Source: an uncultured Massilia sp.
Lineage (GTDB): Bacteria; Pseudomonadota; Gammaproteobacteria; Burkholderiales; Burkholderiaceae
Direction: 5' to 3'
DNA length: 64,000 nt
NCBI GenBank assembly: GCA_946481275.1
Contig: CAMLMV010000008.1
Coordinates: 1-64,000 of the forward strand
Shown here: positions 1-9,845 of the stretch, one piece after another
Numbering within the stretch: position 1 is the stretch's first letter
Layout of the letters: every line of letters starts with the position of its first letter
Made by a program: the position numbers and the translations under genes
The notes under the pieces: generated by a model
The model's database searches: none
What the model was told of the DNA's origin: nothing
The model's input: the letters and a program-made list of their open reading frames with translations, nothing else

Positions 1-125
1 GCATCCTGCGCGGCGGCTCCTGGCTGTACAACCCGCGCTACCTGCGCTCGGCGCTGCGCAACGGCTTTTCGGCCGCCCTGTCGAACGACATCGTCGGTTT
101 TCGTATCGTACGCGACCTGATGTAG
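1..125 (+). CDS. Formylglycine-generating-enzyme (FGE/SUMF1-type) domain protein, C-terminal fragment
   Basis: Only the last 40 codons are inside the window, in the frame beginning at base 3. The fragment reads ILRGGSWLYNP, then a YLRSALRNG segment, then DIVGFRIVRDLM before the TAG stop. The pattern RGGSW, R.A.R and a closing GFR is the signature end of the FGE-sulfatase/PvdO/EgtB-like fold. Such domains oxidise a cysteine, bind copper or iron, or act as non-catalytic modules, and are often fused to Ser/Thr kinases. Which applies cannot be told from this piece. It lies directly upstream of a block containing a kinase, phosphatase and FHA proteins on the other strand, so it may belong to the same signalling neighbourhood; that is inference. 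Confidence 0.75.
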   Translation, partial: ILRGGSWLYNPRYLRSALRNGFSAALSNDIVGFRIVRDLM

Positions 126-197: not shown

Positions 198-302
198 ATG
201 CGAATTCCCAAGGATATCCAGATCCCGTTCATCGTGCTGTCGCTGGAAGCCGTCTTGCTGACTGGCGCGGCGCTGATCTTCCTGATCCTGCGACCGGGTT
301 GA
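198..302 (+). CDS. Small single-pass membrane protein (34 aa)
   Basis: An ATG at 198 opens a 34-codon frame ending at TGA 300-302. It is preceded by a near-perfect Shine-Dalgarno sequence (gaggagg, about 186-192) at good spacing. The peptide starts MRIPKDIQIPF and continues into one hydrophobic segment, about residues 11-31, ending LILRPG. It fits a single transmembrane helix with a short charged N-terminus. It lies 72 nt after the FGE-like gene on the same strand and its stop sits 1 nt before the end of the convergent FHA gene. No family is recognised. The strong ribosome binding site and membrane-like composition are the reasons for calling it. Confidence 0.5.
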   Translation: MRIPKDIQIPFIVLSLEAVLLTGAALIFLILRPG

Positions 303-303
303 T

Positions 304-1782
304 CTAAGCGTCGAGCAGGCGGGCGTACAGGCGCCGGCGCTCTCCCGTGCGTTCGGTATGCTCGTCCGGACGCGGGCTCGCCGCGAACCGTACGCGGCCC
401 GTGAAGCGGGCGAGGCGGTCCAGCACGGTCGCTGGGCCGATCGGGGTTTCCTGGCCGCTGGCCGGGTCGAGGTGCCAGAAACCGCCGTCGCGGTGGAACA
501 GGATCGGCATGCCCGCCGCACGCGGCAGGGCGCCGGAAGCTGCGGCTGCCGGCTCGGGCACGACGCCGGGCGCCAGCAGCACGAAACACTCCGCGGCGCC
601 GCCGGCGTCCACGCGGTGCAGCGTCAGCGCATGCGCGTGCAGCGCCGTCACGACGAACGTCACCACGCCGCGTATGCTGGCCGTCAATTCGATGCGCATG
701 CCGAGGCGCAGGGGGACGGGCACGTGCCTGCCGGGCCAGACGCCGTCCAGCAGCAGGCCGTAGCGCGACACGTCCTCGATCTCGAACCCGCCGCGCGCGG
801 GGCGGATGACGGCATGGCGCGCGGACAGCCGGCGCGTGAGGCCGTCCCGTTCGGGCCCGTGCTCGCCAAAGTGTTCCAGCAGCAGGTCGGCCTCGGCGCC
901 GACGGATTCATGGCGACCCAGTACGCATTCGTCGAGCGCGAACAGGCGCACGTGGCGCTGGGCGCCGGCGTCCGGTTCCGCGTACACGAGGCAGGCGGTG
1001 CTCGCCGGGCACGGATGCGCGGGCCGCTCGGCCGGCAGGTCGATCTCGATCAGGTCCTCGTCCCACGCGATGGTCGGCAGGCCGACTGCCACCTTGCCGC
1101 CGGCACTCCCGTCGAGGTTCAGCTGGGCGATGGACGCGTTGCGGGCCTGGATGTCGATGTCCATCGCGCCGCCGCCGGCCAGGCCCTGCACCCGGGCGAT
1201 GGCGGCATCGTCCGCGCTGATGCGCACGTTCTTGTGCGTGGACAGATAGGTCTGGTGGATCTCGCCCAGCGAGGCGTCCGGGCGCGGCACGAGCAGCACG
1301 AGCGTCGCGACCCACGTGCGGGCCGGGTGGCGCGCATGGATTTCCAGGTCGACGCGGTACTGGCCATGTTCCCGCCCGCGCGACGAGAATTCCACGAACA
1401 CGGGCCGCCAGTCGCCGCGCAGGGTGCGCGCAAACTGCAGCTGGCCTGCGCCCATCGGCAACAGCTTCGATTCGAGCAGCAGGGTGAGTTGCGCCGGCGC
1501 GTCGTCCGGCATGCCCCGCAATTCCAGCTTGATGGCCTGGCGGCCGCCGGCCGCGCGCGGGTCGAAGCCGCTCACGTGCAGGTGCGGACGGGGCGGTTGC
1601 GCGTGGATGGCCGCCGGCATCCGCGCCGGCGTCTCCGTGCGTACGCGTTTGAGCATCTCGAAGCTGGAGCCGAGCAGATCGACCGCGCCGGAAGGCTGGC
1701 GGTGGCCGTGCGCGCACTGCGCCTCGCCTGAGGCGACCCAGACGGTGCAATGCGGGTGATCGGGACTGCTGCAGCGCTTCAT
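304..1782 (-). CDS. FHA-domain protein with N-terminal Cys/His cluster
   Basis: This 492-residue protein carries one clear forkhead-associated domain at about residues 283-355. The conserved G289-R290 is followed by the S320-A-R-H323 motif and a VSRYGLLLDG strand. FHA domains bind phosphothreonine, so it is a likely reader of the kinase product encoded upstream. The N-terminus (MKRCSSPDHPHC, then CAHGH) has three Cys and several His residues and resembles a zinc-ribbon knuckle. The middle of about 230 residues is unassigned beta-rich sequence. No signal peptide or membrane segment is seen, so it is probably cytoplasmic. It lies 120 nt downstream of the PP2C gene on the same strand. A role as effector of the kinase/phosphatase pair is inferred from domain and context. 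Confidence 0.8.
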   Translation of the reverse strand: MKRCSSPDHPHCTVWVASGEAQCAHGHRQPSGAVDLLGSSFEMLKRVRTETPARMPAAIHAQPPRPHLHVSGFDPRAAGGRQAIKLELRGMPDDAPAQLTLLLESKLLPMGAGQLQFARTLRGDWRPVFVEFSSRGREHGQYRVDLEIHARHPARTWVATLVLLVPRPDASLGEIHQTYLSTHKNVRISADDAAIARVQGLAGGGAMDIDIQARNASIAQLNLDGSAGGKVAVGLPTIAWDEDLIEIDLPAERPAHPCPASTACLVYAEPDAGAQRHVRLFALDECVLGRHESVGAEADLLLEHFGEHGPERDGLTRRLSARHAVIRPARGGFEIEDVSRYGLLLDGVWPGRHVPVPLRLGMRIELTASIRGVVTFVVTALHAHALTLHRVDAGGAAECFVLLAPGVVPEPAAAASGALPRAAGMPILFHRDGGFWHLDPASGQETPIGPATVLDRLARFTGRVRFAASPRPDEHTERTGERRRLYARLLDA

Positions 1783-1902
1783 GTGCGTCTATGGTTCGCG
1801 GTTCGGAGTATGGGGACCCAGCTTACGCGATTGTAGCGTAGCGCGGCGCGCGGATTTCATAGTTGAGCAAGACTTTTTTCCAAGATGCACTATTTACCAC
1901 AG

Positions 1903-2862
1903 TCATGCCCCGGGTAATGCGGTCTCGTCCCGGGTCGCGCCGGGAACCCGGATGAGGATCGCGCTGACGTTGTCGGGATAAAAGAACGCGGCCGGATGGG
2001 CCTCGTAGGCGGCAAGCAGGGCACGCAGCATCGCGGCGGCATCCGCCGTGCCGGCCAGCAGCTGCGGCCATTGTGCGACCCAGCCGTGCGGGTCCGAGCA
2101 CGACCACAGGCCGTCCGTCGCCAGCAAATAGGTGCCACCCGGGCGCAGTTCGAGCGGACGGCGGTCGGCCAGGCCGGACAGCCAGGAGGGCAGGTTCAGC
2201 GGCGACAACTCGAACAGCGGATCGTTCAGCCGGGTCGGGTCGGCGAACGCATTCCCGAGCAGGAAGGCCTGGGCGATCTGCGGGCGGTGTTCGCCATGCA
2301 CCTGCCGCCGCCAGTCGGCTTCGCCCAGCAGGCCGGCCATCGCGTACGCGGTGGCGGGGACGTGGTCGACCGTCAACGGCGCCGCGCGCGACGGCAGGAT
2401 CTCGTACAGCCGCGAATCGCCCACGTGGTACAGCAGCGGGACGTCGTCCGCGCGCAATTCCAGCAGGGTGAGCGTGGTGCCGGGGCGGGGGCCGGGTGCG
2501 TCGGCGAAATGGCGTTGCAGGTCCGCGTGCAGCGCGTCCAGGCGGCGCGCCAGCTCGGTGCCGGTCGTGCAGGGCGGCAGCGCCAGCAGGCCGGCGACGA
2601 CGGCTTCCGCGGCTTCGCGGCCGTGGCCATGGCCGCCCATCCCGTCCAGTACGGCGAGGCGCGCGTGACCGGGACGCCAGCCGGGGAGGTGCCGGTGCTG
2701 CACGGCCTGGTCCTGCAGCCACGCGGCATGGCCGTCCGCGTCGATCAGGAGCAGGTTGTCCTGGTTTTCCGCGCGCAGGCGCGGGCCGGCGCCCAGGCAG
2801 GAGCACGCGGCGACGTCCAGGGGGCCGAAGCGCAGCCCGGCAATGAAGTGAGAAATCGGCAT
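1903..2862 (-). CDS. PP2C-family protein serine/threonine phosphatase
   Basis: A 319-residue PPM/PP2C phosphatase. The metal-binding motifs are present in order: RAENQDN (D35), LDGMGGHG (D73), GTTLTLL, HVGDSRLY, LATDGLW and DNVSAILI. These coordinate the two Mn/Mg ions that hydrolyse phosphoserine or phosphothreonine. No membrane segment is seen, unlike actinobacterial PstP, so this is a soluble enzyme. It follows the MFS gene by 41 nt and precedes the FHA gene, and shares the strand with the kinase further upstream. That makes it the probable antagonist of the kinase. The region around residues 170-260 is longer than in minimal PP2C proteins. The family assignment is firm; the physiological substrate is inferred. 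Confidence 0.9.
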   Translation of the reverse strand: MPISHFIAGLRFGPLDVAACSCLGAGPRLRAENQDNLLLIDADGHAAWLQDQAVQHRHLPGWRPGHARLAVLDGMGGHGHGREAAEAVVAGLLALPPCTTGTELARRLDALHADLQRHFADAPGPRPGTTLTLLELRADDVPLLYHVGDSRLYEILPSRAAPLTVDHVPATAYAMAGLLGEADWRRQVHGEHRPQIAQAFLLGNAFADPTRLNDPLFELSPLNLPSWLSGLADRRPLELRPGGTYLLATDGLWSCSDPHGWVAQWPQLLAGTADAAAMLRALLAAYEAHPAAFFYPDNVSAILIRVPGATRDETALPGA

Positions 2863-2903
2863 CCGGCTACTCTAACCGCAAATGCCAAAAGACCAAGCTC
2901 CGA

Positions 2904-4157
2904 TCAGATGGGCTTTTGCCGCCTACCCGTCAGTAACACGGCGGCGTTGACGAGGACGCACGCGCCCGCCGCCGTCATCGCGAACCGTACGCCCCAGGCA
3001 TCTGCCACGCGGCCCCAGAACACGCTGCCGGCCGTGTAGCCGCCCGCCATCACGACGAGATAGATCGCCAGGGTGCGCGCCCGCACGTCCGCCGGAAACG
3101 ACAGCTGGGCGGCCGCGTTCAGGGTCGACACGACGGCCGACCAGGCCATGCCGCCGCACACGATCAGCGGGATGAGCAGCGCGAGCGTATGCAGGAAGGG
3201 CATGATGGCCAGCATGGCGCCGTACACGGCCAGCGCGCCGGCGAGGATGCGGGTCTTGTCGACGCGGGCGCGGATCGCCGGCAGGCAGAACGCGGCCAGC
3301 ACGGCGCCGGCGCCCAGGCTGCCCATCAGCGTGCCGAACACGCTGGCGTCCATGCGCAGCACGTCGCGCACGAACACGGGCAGCAGGCCCGCGAAGGCGA
3401 TCGTGGCGAAGAACACGGTGGCCACGTTGCGCAGGATGCGCCGGTAGCGCGGGCAGCCGAAGGCCATGCGCACGCCTTCGCGCAGGCGCGCGCCATAACC
3501 CGCGCACGGCTTCACGTGCGAGCGGTCGTCGCGCCACCATGCGCGGTAGATGGCGAGCAGGCCCACGAACGAGATCGCGTTGAGGAGGAACAGCGGACCG
3601 GGACCGATCCACTTGAACAGGACGCCGCCCAGCGCCGGTCCGATGATCGCGGCCGTGTTGTACGACAGGTTGTTGAGGGTCGCGGCGGCTTCCACTTCGT
3701 CCGGCTCGACGAGGCCGGACATCGCCGCCTGCCATGCGGGCCACATGAAGGCGGAGCCGCAGCCGAGGCAGAACAGCACCATCAGCACGACGGCGTGCGG
3801 CGCGTGCCCGGACGCCACCAGCGCGGCCAGCGTGCACGCGCAGCCGGCCATGAACAGGTTACAGAAGAACAGGAACTTCGGACGGTGCACGGCGTCCGCG
3901 ACGACGCCCGCGAACAGCGCGAACAGGAAGATCGGGATGTACGTGCACGTCTGCACGAGCGTCGTCGTCGAGGCCGAGTGCGAACTGGACGCGATCAGCC
4001 AGGCCGACGCGAACGTCTGGATCCATGTGCCGAGATTCGAGACCAGGTTGGCGCACCACAGGTGCCGGTAGCGCGCGTGGCGCAGCGGTTGCGTCAGCGG
4101 GACCTTGCGCCGAACTTGATTACCCGCCTGCGCCGGGGTGAAGCTGGATGTCGTCAT
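2904..4157 (-). CDS. MFS transporter (EntS/MFS_3-like)
   Basis: A 417-residue polytopic protein with about 12 hydrophobic segments. After a 22-residue polar N-terminus it shows LRHARYRHLWCANLVSNLG, the usual first-helix signature of the enterobactin-exporter-like MFS_3 branch. A cytoplasmic loop with VADAVHRPKFL follows. The second half begins near residue 230 after a basic linker (GVRMAFGCPRYRRILRN). Members export siderophores or drugs or are of unknown substrate; nothing here fixes a substrate. It sits between the SH3-protein and PP2C genes on the same strand, so it could be co-transcribed with PP2C and FHA, although a link to phospho-signalling is not evident from the protein itself. Confidence 0.85.
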   Translation of the reverse strand: MTTSSFTPAQAGNQVRRKVPLTQPLRHARYRHLWCANLVSNLGTWIQTFASAWLIASSSHSASTTTLVQTCTYIPIFLFALFAGVVADAVHRPKFLFFCNLFMAGCACTLAALVASGHAPHAVVLMVLFCLGCGSAFMWPAWQAAMSGLVEPDEVEAAATLNNLSYNTAAIIGPALGGVLFKWIGPGPLFLLNAISFVGLLAIYRAWWRDDRSHVKPCAGYGARLREGVRMAFGCPRYRRILRNVATVFFATIAFAGLLPVFVRDVLRMDASVFGTLMGSLGAGAVLAAFCLPAIRARVDKTRILAGALAVYGAMLAIMPFLHTLALLIPLIVCGGMAWSAVVSTLNAAAQLSFPADVRARTLAIYLVVMAGGYTAGSVFWGRVADAWGVRFAMTAAGACVLVNAAVLLTGRRQKPI

Positions 4158-4266
4158 CGAGCCAGTCTAAGTGCGCGGCCCGGCCGGGTCAACGCGGCGG
4201 GGGCGCCCGCGTGGTTTTCCCAACGTGACGTTTCGACAAGCTCGCGGCCATGTTATCTTGTTGCTC

Positions 4267-4737
4267 ATGCAAATACGCTTACTGGAACCCGCCGACATCC
4301 CGGCCGCCGCCGACCTGCTGCGGCGCGCCGCCGAGACTTACTTTCTCCACGAATCCGCGCCGGAGGACGCCGCCGGCTTCCTCGCCCAGCACGACGCCGC
4401 GGGCCTGCGCCGCAACCTGGACGCCGGCTTCGTCTACCACGTGGCCATCGTCGATGGCGTGCTGGCCGGCTTCATCGGCGTGCGCGGCGGCACGCACGTC
4501 TTTCACCTGTTCGTCGATGCCGCGTACCAGCGGCGCGGCATCGCGCGGGCGCTGTGGGAGGCGGGGCGCGCGGCGGCGCTCGTGCCCGGGCACGCAGGCG
4601 TCTTTACCGTGAACTCGTCGAATTTCGCCGTGCCGTTCTACGAGTCGCTCGGGTTCGAGCGCACGGCGCCCATGCAGGTCGACAAGGTGCGCTACAACCC
4701 GATGCGCCTCTCAATGCCGCTCGTCGGTGCGGCGTAG
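4267..4737 (+). CDS. GNAT-family N-acetyltransferase
   Basis: A 156-residue acetyltransferase of the GNAT superfamily. The acetyl-CoA pyrophosphate loop reads YQRRGIARALWE, preceded by the strand HVFHLFVDAA; the C-terminal motif VPFYESLGFERT is also typical. Small GNAT enzymes transfer an acetyl group from acetyl-CoA to amines or protein N-termini; the substrate is unknown. The start ATG at 4267 follows a T-rich stretch with a poor ribosome binding site; upstream in-frame sequence does not look like protein. It is the only plus-strand gene inside the minus-strand signalling block. Its last 27 nt overlap the 3' end of the convergent SH3-protein gene. Confidence 0.85.
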   Translation: MQIRLLEPADIPAAADLLRRAAETYFLHESAPEDAAGFLAQHDAAGLRRNLDAGFVYHVAIVDGVLAGFIGVRGGTHVFHLFVDAAYQRRGIARALWEAGRAAALVPGHAGVFTVNSSNFAVPFYESLGFERTAPMQVDKVRYNPMRLSMPLVGAA

Positions 4738-5124
4738 CCACAGGCTGCTGGCCCAGCCCTCCACGCCGCTGCCTTCCACGCGCACGCGCCACCAGTCGCC
4801 GTCCGTCGCACCCGTCGTGCTGACGATCGTCCCCGCGGGCAGCACGCGCATGCGGGTGGCGCGTACGCCGCGCTCTGCGCGCAGGTTCAGGTCGTCGACG
4901 ACGCGGTAGCGCGCACCGGCCGCGGGACCGGCCGCTGCCACCGCCACCGGCACCGGCGCGGCCGGCAGCAGCGTGGCGAACAGCAGACCGAAACCGAGCG
5001 TGCCGCCGGCGACGACGGCCAGCGCCCGCAGATTCGGCCGGCGCCACCACGTGCGCGGCGTGCACCAGGCGGCCAGCACGAGCGTCGCCGCCAGCGCACC
5101 GCCCCAGACGAGCCACGGCGTCAT
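4711..5124 (-). CDS. Membrane-anchored bacterial SH3-domain protein
   Basis: A 137-residue protein beginning MTPWLVWGG. Two hydrophobic helices (about residues 4-20 and 34-56) are followed by an SH3b-like domain (about 72-130): YRVVDDLNLRAERG, then VLPAGTIVSTTG, then WWRVRVEG and GWASSLWL. Such domains in the periplasm often bind peptidoglycan or peptide stems. The start at 5124 has a GAGG ribosome binding site and lies 7 nt after the stop of the upstream FHA-like gene; a start at 5139 would overlap that stop. It is the last gene of the kinase-SEDS-FHA-like-SH3 string and would supply a wall-facing module. Function is inferred. Confidence 0.75.
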   Translation of the reverse strand: MTPWLVWGGALAATLVLAAWCTPRTWWRRPNLRALAVVAGGTLGFGLLFATLLPAAPVPVAVAAAGPAAGARYRVVDDLNLRAERGVRATRMRVLPAGTIVSTTGATDGDWWRVRVEGSGVEGWASSLWLRRTDERH

Positions 5125-5131
5125 GGCCGCC

Positions 5132-6658
5132 TCACGCATCGAAGCGCAGCACGTAATGGCCCGCGACGAGGTGGTGCCCGGCCGGCAGCCGGTACGGCTG
5201 TTCCGCCGTGGCGGCGTCGATCGCGGCGACGAAGGCCAGCTTCTCGTCCAGGTGATACAACGCCTGCGTGGGCGACAGGCGCGCGATCAGCCAGCCGTCC
5301 GGTCCCGCTTCGAAGCTGAACGCGTCGCGCGACAGGCCGAGGCGGTCCGCGCTCGACGGCGGCGTGCCGGCCGCATTCCTGAGGAAGTTCGGCGAATCGA
5401 GCACGCGCAGCGCGGCGAGCATCGGCGCGCCCCGGCCGAACGTGAAGCGCGCGCCCGGCGCCACCGGCAGCGCGGGCGGCTGCGGCAATACGAGCAGGGC
5501 GCAATAGCGGTCGGCCAGCGCGGGGGCGCAGGCGGCGAGTTCCACCCGCGTGCCGTCGACGGGGCTGAACGTGGCCGGCACCGCGATCCGTTCGCGGCCG
5601 GCCTGCGTGATCGCCTGCAGCTGGTCCTGGTCGTCGACGGCGAAGCCGATGACGGCGTCCGACGCTTGCGCCGCGGGGACGAACGCGCGGTTCAAGCCGA
5701 TTTCCAGTGCCTGCGCGCCCGTCTCGCGGTAGCGCGACAGGCGCGGCAGCGCCAGCGCGGCCAGCGTCACGCGCTGGCGCGTGACGGGGGCGTACGTCGC
5801 GTCGACGGTCTGCGGTGCCGGGGTGCGTGCCAGCGGCACGGCCGTCAGTTCCGGATCGGGCGCGGCGCGCGGCTTCCACACGGCGGGGCGGGCGGACGCG
5901 GGTTTCACCAGCGCCGGGCGTGCGGCGGTTGCGGTCACGCGCAGCAGCAGGCGCAGTGCCGCGCCGGTGGCGTCGACGGCGCCGCGGCGCGACCGGATCG
6001 TCCAGTAGCCGGCGGCCGCGTCGTAGCTGCAATCGAAGGCGTCCTTCGGGCGCACCTGCACTTCCAGCGGCGAGTCCGGCCCGTCGTTGATGATGAGGAC
6101 GGCGCCTTCCGCGCCGAACGGCCAGCCCGGCGCGGCGTACGTGGCTTCGTGGGCATCGTGGCCGATCAGGGTCAGTCTCTGGTTCGGGTAGATGGGGCAG
6201 ACCGTCTTCCACACGGCGCTGTCGCGCGAGACGCTGACCGTGTACTGCACGGTCTCGTTCGGCGCGGGCAGGTAGACGGCATGGCCGAATTTCACCTCGA
6301 CCTCGCCCGGCTCCAGCCGGTCGGCGCCGACGACGTGGTAACGGACGTCGTCGCCCTGCAGCAGGTCGCCGAAATCCTTGCGGTGCAGCGCGGAGAGCGA
6401 CTCCGCGAGGTCGCGCACGCGGGCGCCGCGCGTCAGGTGGCGGTCGTCGTCGACCTCTTCCTGCGGCAGCATCAGCGTGATGTGCGAGAAGCAGCGGGTG
6501 GCGGCGCGGCCGCGCTGCTCGCGCGGCGCGCGTTCCAGCAGGTCGCGCAGCAGCGGACGGCGCGCGAACAGGGCCAATCCGGGCGCCTGCCAGATCGCAT
6601 GGGCGTCGAAGACGTCGTTGATCTTGCCTAGGGCTTCATGTTGGACGTAGACCGGCAT
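5132..6658 (-). CDS. Unknown protein with divergent C-terminal FHA-like domain
   Basis: A 508-residue protein starting MPVYVQHEALGKIND after an AGAGGAG ribosome binding site. Its first 30 nt overlap the end of the SEDS gene in another frame, which suggests translational coupling. The C-terminal 110 residues look like a degraded FHA fold: FTFGRGAPM, then LGLSRDAFSF, then YRLPAGHHLVAGHYVLRF, matching the GR, SR-x-x-x and final L-x-x-G pattern, but the usual H after SR is missing. The N-terminal 200 residues include a Cys/His-poor mixed region with YPNQRLTLIGHDAHE; the middle is Ala/Pro-rich. No membrane segment is seen. I do not recognise the full-length family. It is probably a phosphothreonine-linked or structural partner of the SEDS protein, by position. 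Confidence 0.65.
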   Translation of the reverse strand: MPVYVQHEALGKINDVFDAHAIWQAPGLALFARRPLLRDLLERAPREQRGRAATRCFSHITLMLPQEEVDDDRHLTRGARVRDLAESLSALHRKDFGDLLQGDDVRYHVVGADRLEPGEVEVKFGHAVYLPAPNETVQYTVSVSRDSAVWKTVCPIYPNQRLTLIGHDAHEATYAAPGWPFGAEGAVLIINDGPDSPLEVQVRPKDAFDCSYDAAAGYWTIRSRRGAVDATGAALRLLLRVTATAARPALVKPASARPAVWKPRAAPDPELTAVPLARTPAPQTVDATYAPVTRQRVTLAALALPRLSRYRETGAQALEIGLNRAFVPAAQASDAVIGFAVDDQDQLQAITQAGRERIAVPATFSPVDGTRVELAACAPALADRYCALLVLPQPPALPVAPGARFTFGRGAPMLAALRVLDSPNFLRNAAGTPPSSADRLGLSRDAFSFEAGPDGWLIARLSPTQALYHLDEKLAFVAAIDAATAEQPYRLPAGHHLVAGHYVLRFDA

Positions 6659-8910
6659 GATTCGTTCTCCTCTAAAGATTGGCTGCTGGCGGCAGCGGCA
6701 CCTAGCAGGGGGCAGATGAAAAACAGCAGGTGCGAGCCGCCCGCCGACAAGAAGCTCATCGGCTGGCCCATCACCGGGAAGATCGCGAGGTTCGTGCCCC
6801 ACGAGAGCAGGAAGTGGCCGAACGCGAACGCGGCGCCGCCTGCCAGGAAGAAGCAGCGCAGGCGCGCGAGCCATGCGACGCGGAAGTCGCGCGCGTTCGC
6901 GCCGGCCAGCCAGCAGCGCATGGCGAGGCGCAGCAGCGCGGCGAGGAACAGCGCCTGCAGCAGCCACAGGCCGACGGCGGCCGCGAGCCCGTGGCGCTGC
7001 AGGAAGAACGACGCGGCGAAATCGTCCTGCACGGCGGGGATGCGCAGCGCGAACCCCGGATCGAGGCCCAGCGCCGCGAGGCCGAACGCGCCGTCCGCAC
7101 CCATCCAGCCGCCCTGCGCGATGGCACGGGCGCCCAGCAGCAATTGTTGTCCCGTGTGCGGATGCGTGCCCGGATCGAGCCACACGAGGAAGCGGTCGGC
7201 ATAGAAATCCCAGCGCGCGATGCCGTCCGCGCCCGCGCCGCGCAGCAGGGCCACCGTCGCGACGGCCGCCAGCGCCACGCCGGCAAGCAGCCAGGCGGTG
7301 CCGTGCCTGCGCGTGGCCAGTGCCTGCGCCAGCATCATCGTGCCGGCCCACAGCGCCAGCAGCACGAGCGGAGAGTAATCGTCGACCTGCACGAGCGCGA
7401 CGGCGAGCAGCAGCATGAACAGCAGGGCGGGCGCCGCGAGCCGCAGGCCGCGCCGCCACGCGCCGCCCGGCGCCGGACCGCCGGCGCAGGCCAGCGCCAG
7501 GCAGTGGGCGGACAGCGCGGCCAGCGCCAGCTTGGCGAATTCCACGGGCTGCAGGTCGAACACGCCCGTCTCGTCGCCGTACGCGACCTGCAGCAGCAGC
7601 GCGAGCAGCGCGGCGCCGGTGAGCAGCAACAGCGCCAGTTCGATGCGCGCCTGCGGCAGCGGTCGCGCGGGACGCACGAGGCCCGCCAGCGTGGCGGCGC
7701 CCGCGCCCAGGGCGAGCAGCGCGGCCGTCTTGTGGAAGTGGCGCAGCCAGGCGGCGTCCGGCGCGCCGAGGCCCAGGTCGAGCTGGGCCAGCAGGCCTAC
7801 TGCGAGCAGCGGCAGCGCGGCGGCGAGCACCGGCTCGGGTTTGCGCGGCGCCAGCAGCGCGAACGCCAGCGCGGCCCACGCGACGAGCAGCCCAATGCCG
7901 GCGCCGGCGGGTGTGCCCGTGCGCTGCAGCCAGAACAGGACGGCGCCGCAGCCGGCCAGCATCAGGGCCGCGCCGGCCTTCCTGTTCACGAGCAGCGTGG
8001 CCGCGCAGGCAAGGCCGAAGAGGGCGAGCAGAGGTGTGGCCGCCCGTGCCGGCAGGTCCCACGCCGCGCGCCGCGTCCACGTCCATGCGATGCCGGCCGG
8101 CAGGCGCTTCTGCGCGTCGGCATACAGCGCGACGTGGCCGCCGGGTTGCATGCGCAGCACGCCGCCGTCCGGCGCGAGCAGCAGGCGCGTGCGGCCGGCG
8201 ACGAGCGTCTGCCCCGTATCCAGCCGCAACGGACGGCTGGCCAGCAGCGCCGCGCCGTGGCCGTCTTCCAGCAGCAGCGGGACGGCCGGTCCGGTGCCCA
8301 GCAGGAAGCCGTCTTCGTTGCGTGCGATGCCTGCCGCGTGCAACGGCAGGCCCGCGATCGCGATGCGGTTGCCGCAATCGAGATTGCCGCCGAAGACGAG
8401 CGGACGGCCGAACGCCAGCGCGCGCGGCGCGATCCGGTTCCAGGCATCCGCCAGGCGCGCGTCGGGGCAGGCCTGTTGCGGTACGCCGTCGCGGCGCAGC
8501 CGCGCGCCGTCGTAGCGCCAGCGGGTTCCGCCCGCCGCGAAGTCGACGGCGTTTGCGTCGGCCGCGTCGACGCGCATGCGCAGCACGCCGAGCTGGAACC
8601 GCTGGCCGCGCGCCAGCACGACAGTGCCGCTGCGGTGCTGACGTGTGCCGTCCTGGACGCGCAGCGGCGCGCCCGTGCCGTCGTCCGCCGCCCACCAGGT
8701 GCCGTCCGCGCGGTGCTCCAGGCGCAGGCGGCCGGTGTCCGCCGCGGGGGCGCCGAGTGCCGCGTGGTCGATGTCCAGCGCCGCACCGGGTGCCACCGCG
8801 ACGGCCACCTGCGCGGGCAGCCACGCGGCCGGCGCGCGCAGCAATGCGAACATCTGCAGCGCGCACAGGACGGCGAGCAAGGCGCCGGACGCCATCCGGG
8901 CGCGGCTCAT
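6628..8910 (-). CDS. SEDS (FtsW/RodA/SpoVE) family protein with large extra N-terminal domain
   Basis: A 760-residue protein. A first membrane helix (about 7-25) is followed by about 260 hydrophilic residues, predicted periplasmic by charge, then a polytopic SEDS core of about ten helices. Core signatures are QPVEFAKLALAAL, QVDDYSPLVLL, QGGWMGADGAFG, PAVQDDFAASFF and FPVMGQPMSFLSAGGS. D630 in QDDF aligns by motif with the catalytic Asp of RodA/FtsW, so peptidoglycan glycosyltransferase or related activity is plausible. Typical FtsW/RodA proteins have 370-420 residues and lack such a domain. The start codon overlaps the kinase stop as ATGA. No class B penicillin-binding protein is nearby. It is probably a specialised SEDS protein regulated by the adjacent kinase; that role is inferred. 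Confidence 0.85.
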   Translation of the reverse strand: MSRARMASGALLAVLCALQMFALLRAPAAWLPAQVAVAVAPGAALDIDHAALGAPAADTGRLRLEHRADGTWWAADDGTGAPLRVQDGTRQHRSGTVVLARGQRFQLGVLRMRVDAADANAVDFAAGGTRWRYDGARLRRDGVPQQACPDARLADAWNRIAPRALAFGRPLVFGGNLDCGNRIAIAGLPLHAAGIARNEDGFLLGTGPAVPLLLEDGHGAALLASRPLRLDTGQTLVAGRTRLLLAPDGGVLRMQPGGHVALYADAQKRLPAGIAWTWTRRAAWDLPARAATPLLALFGLACAATLLVNRKAGAALMLAGCGAVLFWLQRTGTPAGAGIGLLVAWAALAFALLAPRKPEPVLAAALPLLAVGLLAQLDLGLGAPDAAWLRHFHKTAALLALGAGAATLAGLVRPARPLPQARIELALLLLTGAALLALLLQVAYGDETGVFDLQPVEFAKLALAALSAHCLALACAGGPAPGGAWRRGLRLAAPALLFMLLLAVALVQVDDYSPLVLLALWAGTMMLAQALATRRHGTAWLLAGVALAAVATVALLRGAGADGIARWDFYADRFLVWLDPGTHPHTGQQLLLGARAIAQGGWMGADGAFGLAALGLDPGFALRIPAVQDDFAASFFLQRHGLAAAVGLWLLQALFLAALLRLAMRCWLAGANARDFRVAWLARLRCFFLAGGAAFAFGHFLLSWGTNLAIFPVMGQPMSFLSAGGSHLLFFICPLLGAAAASSQSLEENESCRSTSNMKP

Positions 8911-9845
8911 GCGGCGCTCCGCAACGGGTGGGCGCCGGCGGCGGCGCGGGCGATCAGGCGGCTGATTTCCAGCGCGTGCCGGGGCCGCGCCTCCGGACGC
9001 GGTGCCAGCAGCGCGCGCAGCAGCGTCAGCGCATCGTCCGCGCCGGCGTGGCCGGCGAACAGCGCGGCTTCGTCGGGCGCGAGGATCGCGGGTGCGCGCA
9101 GCGCGGCGGCGCCGGCCGTGCCGTGCGTCCGGTATGCGTCGGCGCAGGCGGCGCAATAGCGCAGCGGGATGCCGGTCACGAGCCAGTAGAGCAGGGCGCC
9201 CAATGCGAAATAATCGCTGCGCGCGTCGGTCCGGTAGCGGCCGGCGTCATCGGGAAAGAATTGTTCGGGCGCCTGCCAGGCCGCGGTGCCGGCGTAGGTG
9301 TGCGCGGCGCTGTCCTGCAGGGGGCGGTTGGTGCCGAAATCCGCGAGCTTGAGCGTGCCTTTGTGTGCGTCGACGAGCAGGTTGGCCGGCTTCAGGTCCA
9401 GGTAGCGCCAGCCGTATTGGTGAACCTTCGCCAGCGCGGCATTCACTTGTGCCGTCCACGCGAGGGCCTGGCCGATGCCGGGAAGGTCGCCGCGGCTGCG
9501 CAGCGTCGCCAGGTGGGCGGCCAGGTCGCCGTCCAGGAGTTCCAGTGCCAGCGCCGGCTGGCCGTCGTGTTCGCCGCTGTCGAGCAGGCGCACGATGTGG
9601 CGCTGGTCCCATGGCTGCAGGCCGCGCAGGAAGGCGATCTCGGCCTCGAAGCTTACGCGCCAGACGGCCCGCTGCGGCGGCAACGCCAGGTCCATCTGCG
9701 CGCGGTTCACGAGTTTCACCGCGGCCGGCGTGCCGTCGAGCACGGCGTCCGCGCGCCACACCTGGCCATAGCTCGAACCGCCCAGCGGCGCCTGCAGGCG
9801 CCAGGCGCCCGCCGTCAACGTGATGATGTCGCCTGCCTCGACCAT
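8907..9845 (-). CDS. Serine/threonine protein kinase (Hanks type)
   Basis: A 312-residue kinase domain with almost no flanking sequence. Visible motifs: glycine loop LGGSSYGQVWRA, ATP-anchoring K44 in AAVKLVN, catalytic loop YLDLKPANLL (D150, K152, N155), DFG at D169, APEQ, and the ARSDYFALGALLYWLVTG helix. The catalytic loop has YLD instead of HRD, so it is a non-RD kinase. There is no transmembrane segment or PASTA domain, unlike PknB. Its stop overlaps the start of the SEDS gene (ATGA), which strongly suggests co-translation. Likely targets are the SEDS protein and the FHA proteins nearby. It heads the minus-strand transcription unit; the 112 nt between it and the divergent membrane-protein gene should hold its promoter. 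Confidence 0.9.
   Translation of the reverse strand: MVEAGDIITLTAGAWRLQAPLGGSSYGQVWRADAVLDGTPAAVKLVNRAQMDLALPPQRAVWRVSFEAEIAFLRGLQPWDQRHIVRLLDSGEHDGQPALALELLDGDLAAHLATLRSRGDLPGIGQALAWTAQVNAALAKVHQYGWRYLDLKPANLLVDAHKGTLKLADFGTNRPLQDSAAHTYAGTAAWQAPEQFFPDDAGRYRTDARSDYFALGALLYWLVTGIPLRYCAACADAYRTHGTAGAAALRAPAILAPDEAALFAGHAGADDALTLLRALLAPRPEARPRHALEISRLIARAAAGAHPLRSAA

Follow-up and report, generated by a model that had tools for sequence, protein, structure and literature searches.

The 64,000-nucleotide stretch of DNA analysed here (the window) comes from an uncultured Massilia sp. (GenBank assembly GCA_946481275.1, contig CAMLMV010000008.1, positions 1 to 64,000) and carries, close to one end and within 9.5 kb of a single strand, six genes that bring together a SEDS glycosyltransferase-like protein and a set of Ser/Thr phospho-signalling proteins:

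8907..9845, minus strand: Kin, a Ser/Thr protein kinase of 312 amino acids (aa) (Pfam Pkinase, 3.7e-28)
6628..8910, minus strand: SEDS glycosyltransferase-like protein of 760 aa (PF01098, fold model, alignment of the catalytic Asp)
5132..6658, minus strand: FHAL, 508 aa, with a C-terminal FHA-fold domain (predicted fold)
4711..5124, minus strand: SH3, a small protein with a bacterial SH3_3 domain (Pfam SH3_3, 1.3e-9) and membrane segments assigned by eye; its start may lie at 5139
1903..2862, minus strand: PP2C, a PP2C-type Ser/Thr phosphatase (profile against solved structures, metal-binding residues)
304..1782, minus strand: FHA protein of 492 aa with an N-terminal Cys/His-rich stretch (FHA-type GR and SxxH motifs)

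An earlier interpretation made from the letters of the DNA (the sequence-only reading) had named these genes, and both their arrangement and the overlapping starts and stops that it described among the first three hold up, with overlaps of 4 bases between Kin and SEDS and of 31 bases between SEDS and FHAL. It had omitted two genes that intervene between SH3 and PP2C, a plus-strand GNAT gene followed by a minus-strand MFS gene.

The SEDS protein is divergent but, as was claimed for it, a SEDS protein indeed, and the profile search that had been named as the test bears this out, with 64.9 bits for PF01098 against a curated cut-off of 26.4. The predicted model fits the multi-helix SEDS fold and scores 14.8-17.2 with SEDS structures and 8.8 with WaaL, and the putative catalytic Asp630, encoded at 7023-7021, is invariant in 37 sequences. 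This residue, placed in extracellular loop 4 (ECL4), falls on the TDF Asp when aligned with six RodA-type proteins and is kept in two distant homologs; we take the RodA TDF Asp and D297 of FtsW to be one position, and the TD motif given in the available part of the source leads to the same assignment (PMC8765783). The same part of that source describes the FtsW D297A variant as inactive (PMC8765783). The model begins with an N-terminal transmembrane segment and continues through two beta-rich domains (about residues 30-280) and three extra helices into the SEDS core, so that the protein carries about 350 extra N-terminal residues, among which the invariant cysteines C148 and C179 would fit a periplasmic disulfide. 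Its profile matched no canonical SEDS protein at E 0.001 in nine genomes; all six genomes that are at least 90% complete have exactly three SEDS genes, the island SEDS being the third, and a further genome, G007 (83% complete), has two.

Conservation of the set in relatives, which the sequence-only reading had proposed to look for, is evident within the genus. With the window SEDS as query, matches were found in 36 of 61 relatives, comprising 36 of the 37 members of the genus and none of 24 genomes from other families of the order; the sole miss in the genus is the draft genome G007. One in-frame stop occurs in six of the 40 match rows, and since four such loci give open frames of 762-770 aa when re-read, the stop probably sits at the C-terminus of the match. 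The order Kin-SEDS-FHAL-SH3-PP2C-FHA is kept in 29 wide loci (three of which belong to one genome that was fetched twice), the exceptions being L061, where Kin is off the contig, and L050, where FHA is cut. In the nearest genome compared, that of M. kyonggiensis JCM 19189 (G001; 30% of sampled words common to the window), the six gene products and the MFS protein are 92-98% identical to those of the window.

The sequence-only reading had further held that the set lacks the class B penicillin-binding protein (PBP) partner, and had advised looking for a conserved PBP outside the window. That search did not support the claim, as a class-B-type PBP is encoded in a convergent operon of the same island (operon B) in all six relatives examined in depth. 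Beyond the FHA gene, operon B of the relatives encodes a SHOCT-kinase-FGE fusion (kinase-FGE), an SPFH-like zinc-ribbon protein, three more conserved proteins, a sigma-like protein and, at its far end, the PBP (the SPFH and sigma-like labels were assigned by eye); in G001 the distance from the FHA gene to the end of the PBP is 8.3 kb. The PBP open reading frame spans 1055 aa, its start perhaps lying 48 residues in, and matches Transpeptidase (PF00905) at 3.4e-15 (56.5 against 22.1 bits), with SxxK, SxN and KTGT motifs that are invariant in five sequences. PF00905 is the only Pfam match at E up to 1, GT51 being absent, and about 600 N-terminal residues match no Pfam family, the PBP dimerisation (pedestal) domain included. 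The weakly scoring PBP sits at the island in each of the six genomes that are at least 90% complete; no match to it was found in G007. In the PBP at L062:11108-14275, six cysteines are invariant (174, 269, 498, 503, 641 and 654 in L062 numbering) and perhaps form periplasmic disulfides.

Two lines of evidence tie this PBP to the six-gene set. First, among 245 genomes of the family, FHAL occurs in 53 (6 of 44 genera), the PBP in 53 (5 of 44 genera) and both in 51, corresponding to a hypergeometric value of 1e-47 uncorrected for relatedness, and in 45 of the 51 the two genes lie within 31 kb. The PBP-only genomes are G275, where a fragment of SEDS lies on a different contig and the FHA gene is truncated by a contig start, and G283, a draft that is 81% complete. 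Second, one of the two FHAL-only genomes, that of Massilia terrae (G238), keeps 11 of the 13 families (Kin, FHAL, SH3, PP2C, FHA, kinase-FGE, SPFH and four more), and neither an island-type SEDS nor the PBP was found in the genome (places L170:9304-9384 and L171:5382-5544). The gap of 80 bases between its kinase and FHAL genes reads in part like the last SEDS residues followed by a stop, which points to a loss rather than to ancestral absence. As SEDS and PBP are missing together while their 11 neighbours are kept, we regard this genome as good evidence that the two proteins work together.

In G407, from another family, Kin-SEDS-FHAL adjoins a divergently oriented PBP gene, and relatives of PP2C and SPFH lie in the 35 kb covered; in G581, SEDS-FHAL stands without a recognised kinase next to it, and in G711, of the same genus as G581, FHAL lies close to the end of a contig. 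The set is rare outside the family, with 2 of 398 genomes in a phylum sample (both from the genus of the window) and 3 of 369 in a class sample, and order samples gave the PBP in 3 of 250 and FHAL in 7 of 389. Near the island of G407, the proteins at L166:2564-4717 and L167:3120-4175 match the FGE part of the kinase-FGE profile, those at L166:16963-19026 and L167:8176-12210 match only its linker part, and some of these look caspase-like at their start by eye. A 164-aa open reading frame near a contig end of G581 (L187:8649-9143) resembles only the middle of the PBP N-terminal extension (2.2e-12).

The kinase and the phosphatase keep their catalytic residues. In Kin, K44, D150 and D169-F-G are invariant in 11 sequences, two distant ones included, and HRD is replaced by [YH]LD; Pfam gives kinase families only, with no PASTA domain, and NF033483 reaches 70.4 of 450 bits. 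The kinase of G062 (L165:12613-13737), a genome without an island-type SEDS, shows by eye an extra C-terminal hydrophobic segment. The metal-binding residues of PP2C (D35, D73, D250 and D297) are invariant in ten sequences, and its profile matches PppA best among solved structures (6jkv, 6.9e-12), with PstP (2cm1) at 1.6e-8. The FHA protein conserves G289-R290, S320, H323 and D337 in 13 sequences; it has no Pfam FHA match, and the FHA family of the type VI secretion system (T6SS), NCBIfam VI_FHA, is reached at E 0.17 with 11.7 bits against a cut-off of 120.25. FHAL matches no Pfam family, and its residues 291-508 are predicted to adopt the FHA beta-sandwich fold behind an N-terminal part that is modelled with low to medium confidence. 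G408-R409 and S443-R444 are invariant in ten FHAL sequences, and a His at the SxxH place appears only in the G581 and G711 rows.

FHAL and PP2C also share a candidate switch motif, [DE]xT[AV]xP, which is conserved in 20 of 21 sequences of each and, at a 40% threshold, in none of the other 11 of the 13 families. FHA domains prefer a certain residue at the third position after a phosphothreonine. In FHAL the motif (ELT272AVP, at 5851-5834) lies in a low-confidence linker directly before the FHA domain, and in PP2C it lies in the C-terminal tail, DET314ALPGA. It does not occur in the 15,769 aa of 43 other gene-like open reading frames of the window, chosen by a simple selection rule. In other genera of the family, 17 of 20 FHAL rows (two of them duplicates) have TA[VL]P, often as GDTAVP, and all five PP2C tails that do not run off the end of the locus read DETALP, SETALP or DETAAP. 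We regard the motif as a likely phospho-acceptor and ligand for FHA domains.

Taken together, we consider it probable that SEDS and its own class-B-type PBP form a third, dedicated peptidoglycan synthase, built into a locus that also supplies a Ser/Thr phospho-signalling kit. This builds on the genes, their folds and catalytic residues, synteny, co-occurrence, joint absence in one relative and the shared motif, from which we infer enzymatic activity, phosphorylation, FHA binding, a SEDS-PBP complex, the topology and an inducing condition. In such a system, soluble Kin, and perhaps also the kinase-FGE of operon B, would phosphorylate the motif Thr in the FHAL linker and the PP2C tail; the FHA domains of FHAL and/or the FHA protein would bind the phospho-motif, with FHAL toggling between a free and a bound state like GarA. 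FHAL, whose gene overlaps SEDS, may relay this state to the synthase, PP2C would reset it, and SEDS and PBP would act as a pair in which one polymerises and the other cross-links peptidoglycan, while SH3 and the large additional domains that SEDS and PBP carry could serve as periplasmic sensing or anchoring parts. More tentatively, we can picture a phosphorylation-gated Gram-negative synthase of SEDS and class B PBP in which kinase and PP2C set the state of the motif in FHAL (Thr272) and the PP2C tail, and FHAL turns a third, conditional synthase on and off independently of elongasome and divisome; such a system would parallel that of actinobacterial PknB but have been assembled separately, and would include a 34-aa membrane peptide in addition. 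The claim of the sequence-only reading that a separate phospho-signalling module controls the SEDS protein thus stands as far as the distinct make-up and the conserved set are concerned, and control by phosphorylation stays a matter of inference.

A number of observations weigh against the proposed synthase and its switch. Concerning the synthase, the core of the SEDS model has a low pLDDT (predicted local distance difference test), and all 12 SEDS sequences read SAGG or SSGG, with Ala or Ser where FtsW has Tyr379 (SYGG). According to the available part of the source, this Tyr is needed in FtsW, as Y379A fails to complement (PMC8765783). The PBP is known from relatives, the stretch itself stopping 303 bases past the FHA gene; its Pfam score is far under those of housekeeping PBPs, and a search of its profile against solved structures at E 0.01 returned no PBP, only four nanobody-like chance matches, which we read as a sign of divergence. 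No full PBP was found in G581 (80 contigs), FHAL and PBP lie 849 kb apart in G266 and on different contigs in five drafts, and the co-occurrence value takes no account of relatedness. The SEDS stub of M. terrae comprises 19 residues matched at E 2 to 9, and we accept it because of where it lies, not because of its score. Regarding the switch, the usual FHA His is missing from Massilia FHAL, the strict motif fails in L041 FHAL, L040 PP2C and G238 FHAL as well as in the many FHAL proteins of other genera that read GDTAVP or GETAVP, and the FHAL proteins of L115, L117 and L120 have no TA[VL]P. The motif is absent at that place in the distant G407, G581, G711 and G062, and is therefore not an ancestral mechanism.

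The kit also persists without SEDS and PBP, almost whole in M. terrae, which keeps its 11 families, and in part (Kin-FHAL-SH3) in G062, the other FHAL-only genome, so it may have other outputs. Signalling kit and synthase could then be two functions in one island, the kit mainly regulating something else, such as the sigma-like or SPFH-like proteins of operon B, and the synthase being a passenger or one output among several. We think this unlikely, as the SEDS gene lies between Kin and FHAL and overlaps both, an order kept in the 29 wide loci and G407, and as G581 keeps SEDS-FHAL with no recognised kinase beside it. A module of the envelope-stress or anti-phage type, whose kinases sense damage or attack and whose synthase repairs or seals the wall, would account for the FGE-fused kinase and SPFH-like protein that accompany the set and for the matches of both kinases to the PADLOC PD-T4-6 and mad6 kinase models; these matches look generic for kinases, the other eight proteins scanned gave none at 1e-3, and most wide loci have the same flanking housekeeping-type genes, unlike a mobile defence island, which leaves this explanation improbable. 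That the polymer handled by SEDS and PBP is not ordinary peptidoglycan, or that both proteins are inactive scaffolds, we regard as having little chance, given the invariant catalytic Asp and three PBP motifs and the scores with SEDS structures, far above that of WaaL. An origin as a repurposed offshoot of the T6SS threonine-phosphorylation pathway (PpkA-PppA-Fha), suggested by PppA as the best solved match of PP2C and by the sub-threshold T6SS FHA match, is scarcely credible, as that match falls so far below its cut-off and no T6SS family scored above cut-off in the general scans made, which included no search aimed at T6SS.

The six genes are bordered or interrupted by four further genes of the window:

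4171..4737, plus strand: GNAT acetyltransferase (Pfam)
2904..4157, minus strand: MFS_3 transporter, accessory (Pfam, 2.9e-95)
198..302, plus strand: small hydrophobic protein of 34 aa, the last gene of operon B (tblastn in the wide loci)
3..125, plus strand: 3' end of the kinase-FGE fusion gene of operon B, whose remainder is off the window (100% over 40 aa to the M. kyonggiensis protein)

MFS is present in only 14 of the 29 wide loci (missing in L036-L046, L050 and L059-L061) and is thus not part of the core; GNAT stands beside the set in 28 of 29, missing in L036, and is commoner than expected of a bystander. The start of the 34-aa peptide is preceded by the Shine-Dalgarno-like GAGGAG, and 27 of the 29 wide loci have a tblastn match to it at 47-100% identity, the match in L048 being weak (E 0.65). 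The segment at 3-125 encodes the last 40 residues of kinase-FGE, which are the same as residues 697-736 in M. kyonggiensis, and operon B thus comes into view at the window edge.

Discussion of Ser/Thr-kinase control over SEDS synthases centres on Gram-positive bacteria and Actinobacteria, and our searches of open-licence papers in PubMed Central showed no description of this gene set in a Gram-negative bacterium, which is no proof that it is unpublished. If our proposal is right, protein phosphorylation may act as a switch of cell-wall synthesis in this soil-dwelling member of the Massilia group, and the locus would provide a Gram-negative system with a complete, non-housekeeping pair of SEDS and class B PBP that should be open to deletion and has named candidate phospho-sites. 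It would also make it possible to ask what purpose a third synthase serves, with M. terrae, a relative without just the pair, as a natural comparison strain.

Finally, the locus can be compared with several known systems. It shares the SEDS core fold, the catalytic Asp and the transpeptidase motifs with the synthase pairings FtsW-FtsI and RodA-PBP2, and differs from them as a third, very divergent pair with extra N-terminal residues (about 350 in SEDS, about 600 in PBP). Like the T6SS threonine-phosphorylation pathway, whose members are PpkA, PppA and Fha, it combines a kinase, a PP2C with PppA as its closest solved structure and an FHA protein; in contrast to that pathway, it includes a peptidoglycan synthase pair and shows no T6SS family above cut-off in the scans described above. 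FHAL recalls the GarA/OdhI switch in its conserved Thr motif N-terminal to the FHA domain, which the available part of the source describes as regulatory in GarA (PMC12321487), whereas the motif there is ETTS and the candidate motif here is [DE]xT[AV]xP, recurring in the phosphatase tail. The closest counterpart is the actinobacterial locus pstP-rodA-pbpA-pknA-pknB-fhaA/B, where, in the part of the source available, genes for kinase, PP2C phosphatase, FHA proteins, SEDS and class B PBP likewise stand together (PMC6554272). As the sequence-only reading had anticipated, the make-up here is a different one: the transmembrane PASTA kinase of Actinobacteria is replaced by a short Kin without PASTA, and the actinobacterial unit of SEDS and PBP with the phosphatase gene by a PBP in a separate, convergent operon with kinase-FGE and an SPFH-like protein, and on both points the locus falls outside the actinobacterial type. 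It is set apart further by an FHAL without a Pfam family, by large extra domains on SEDS and PBP, and by the two canonical SEDS genes that exist besides.
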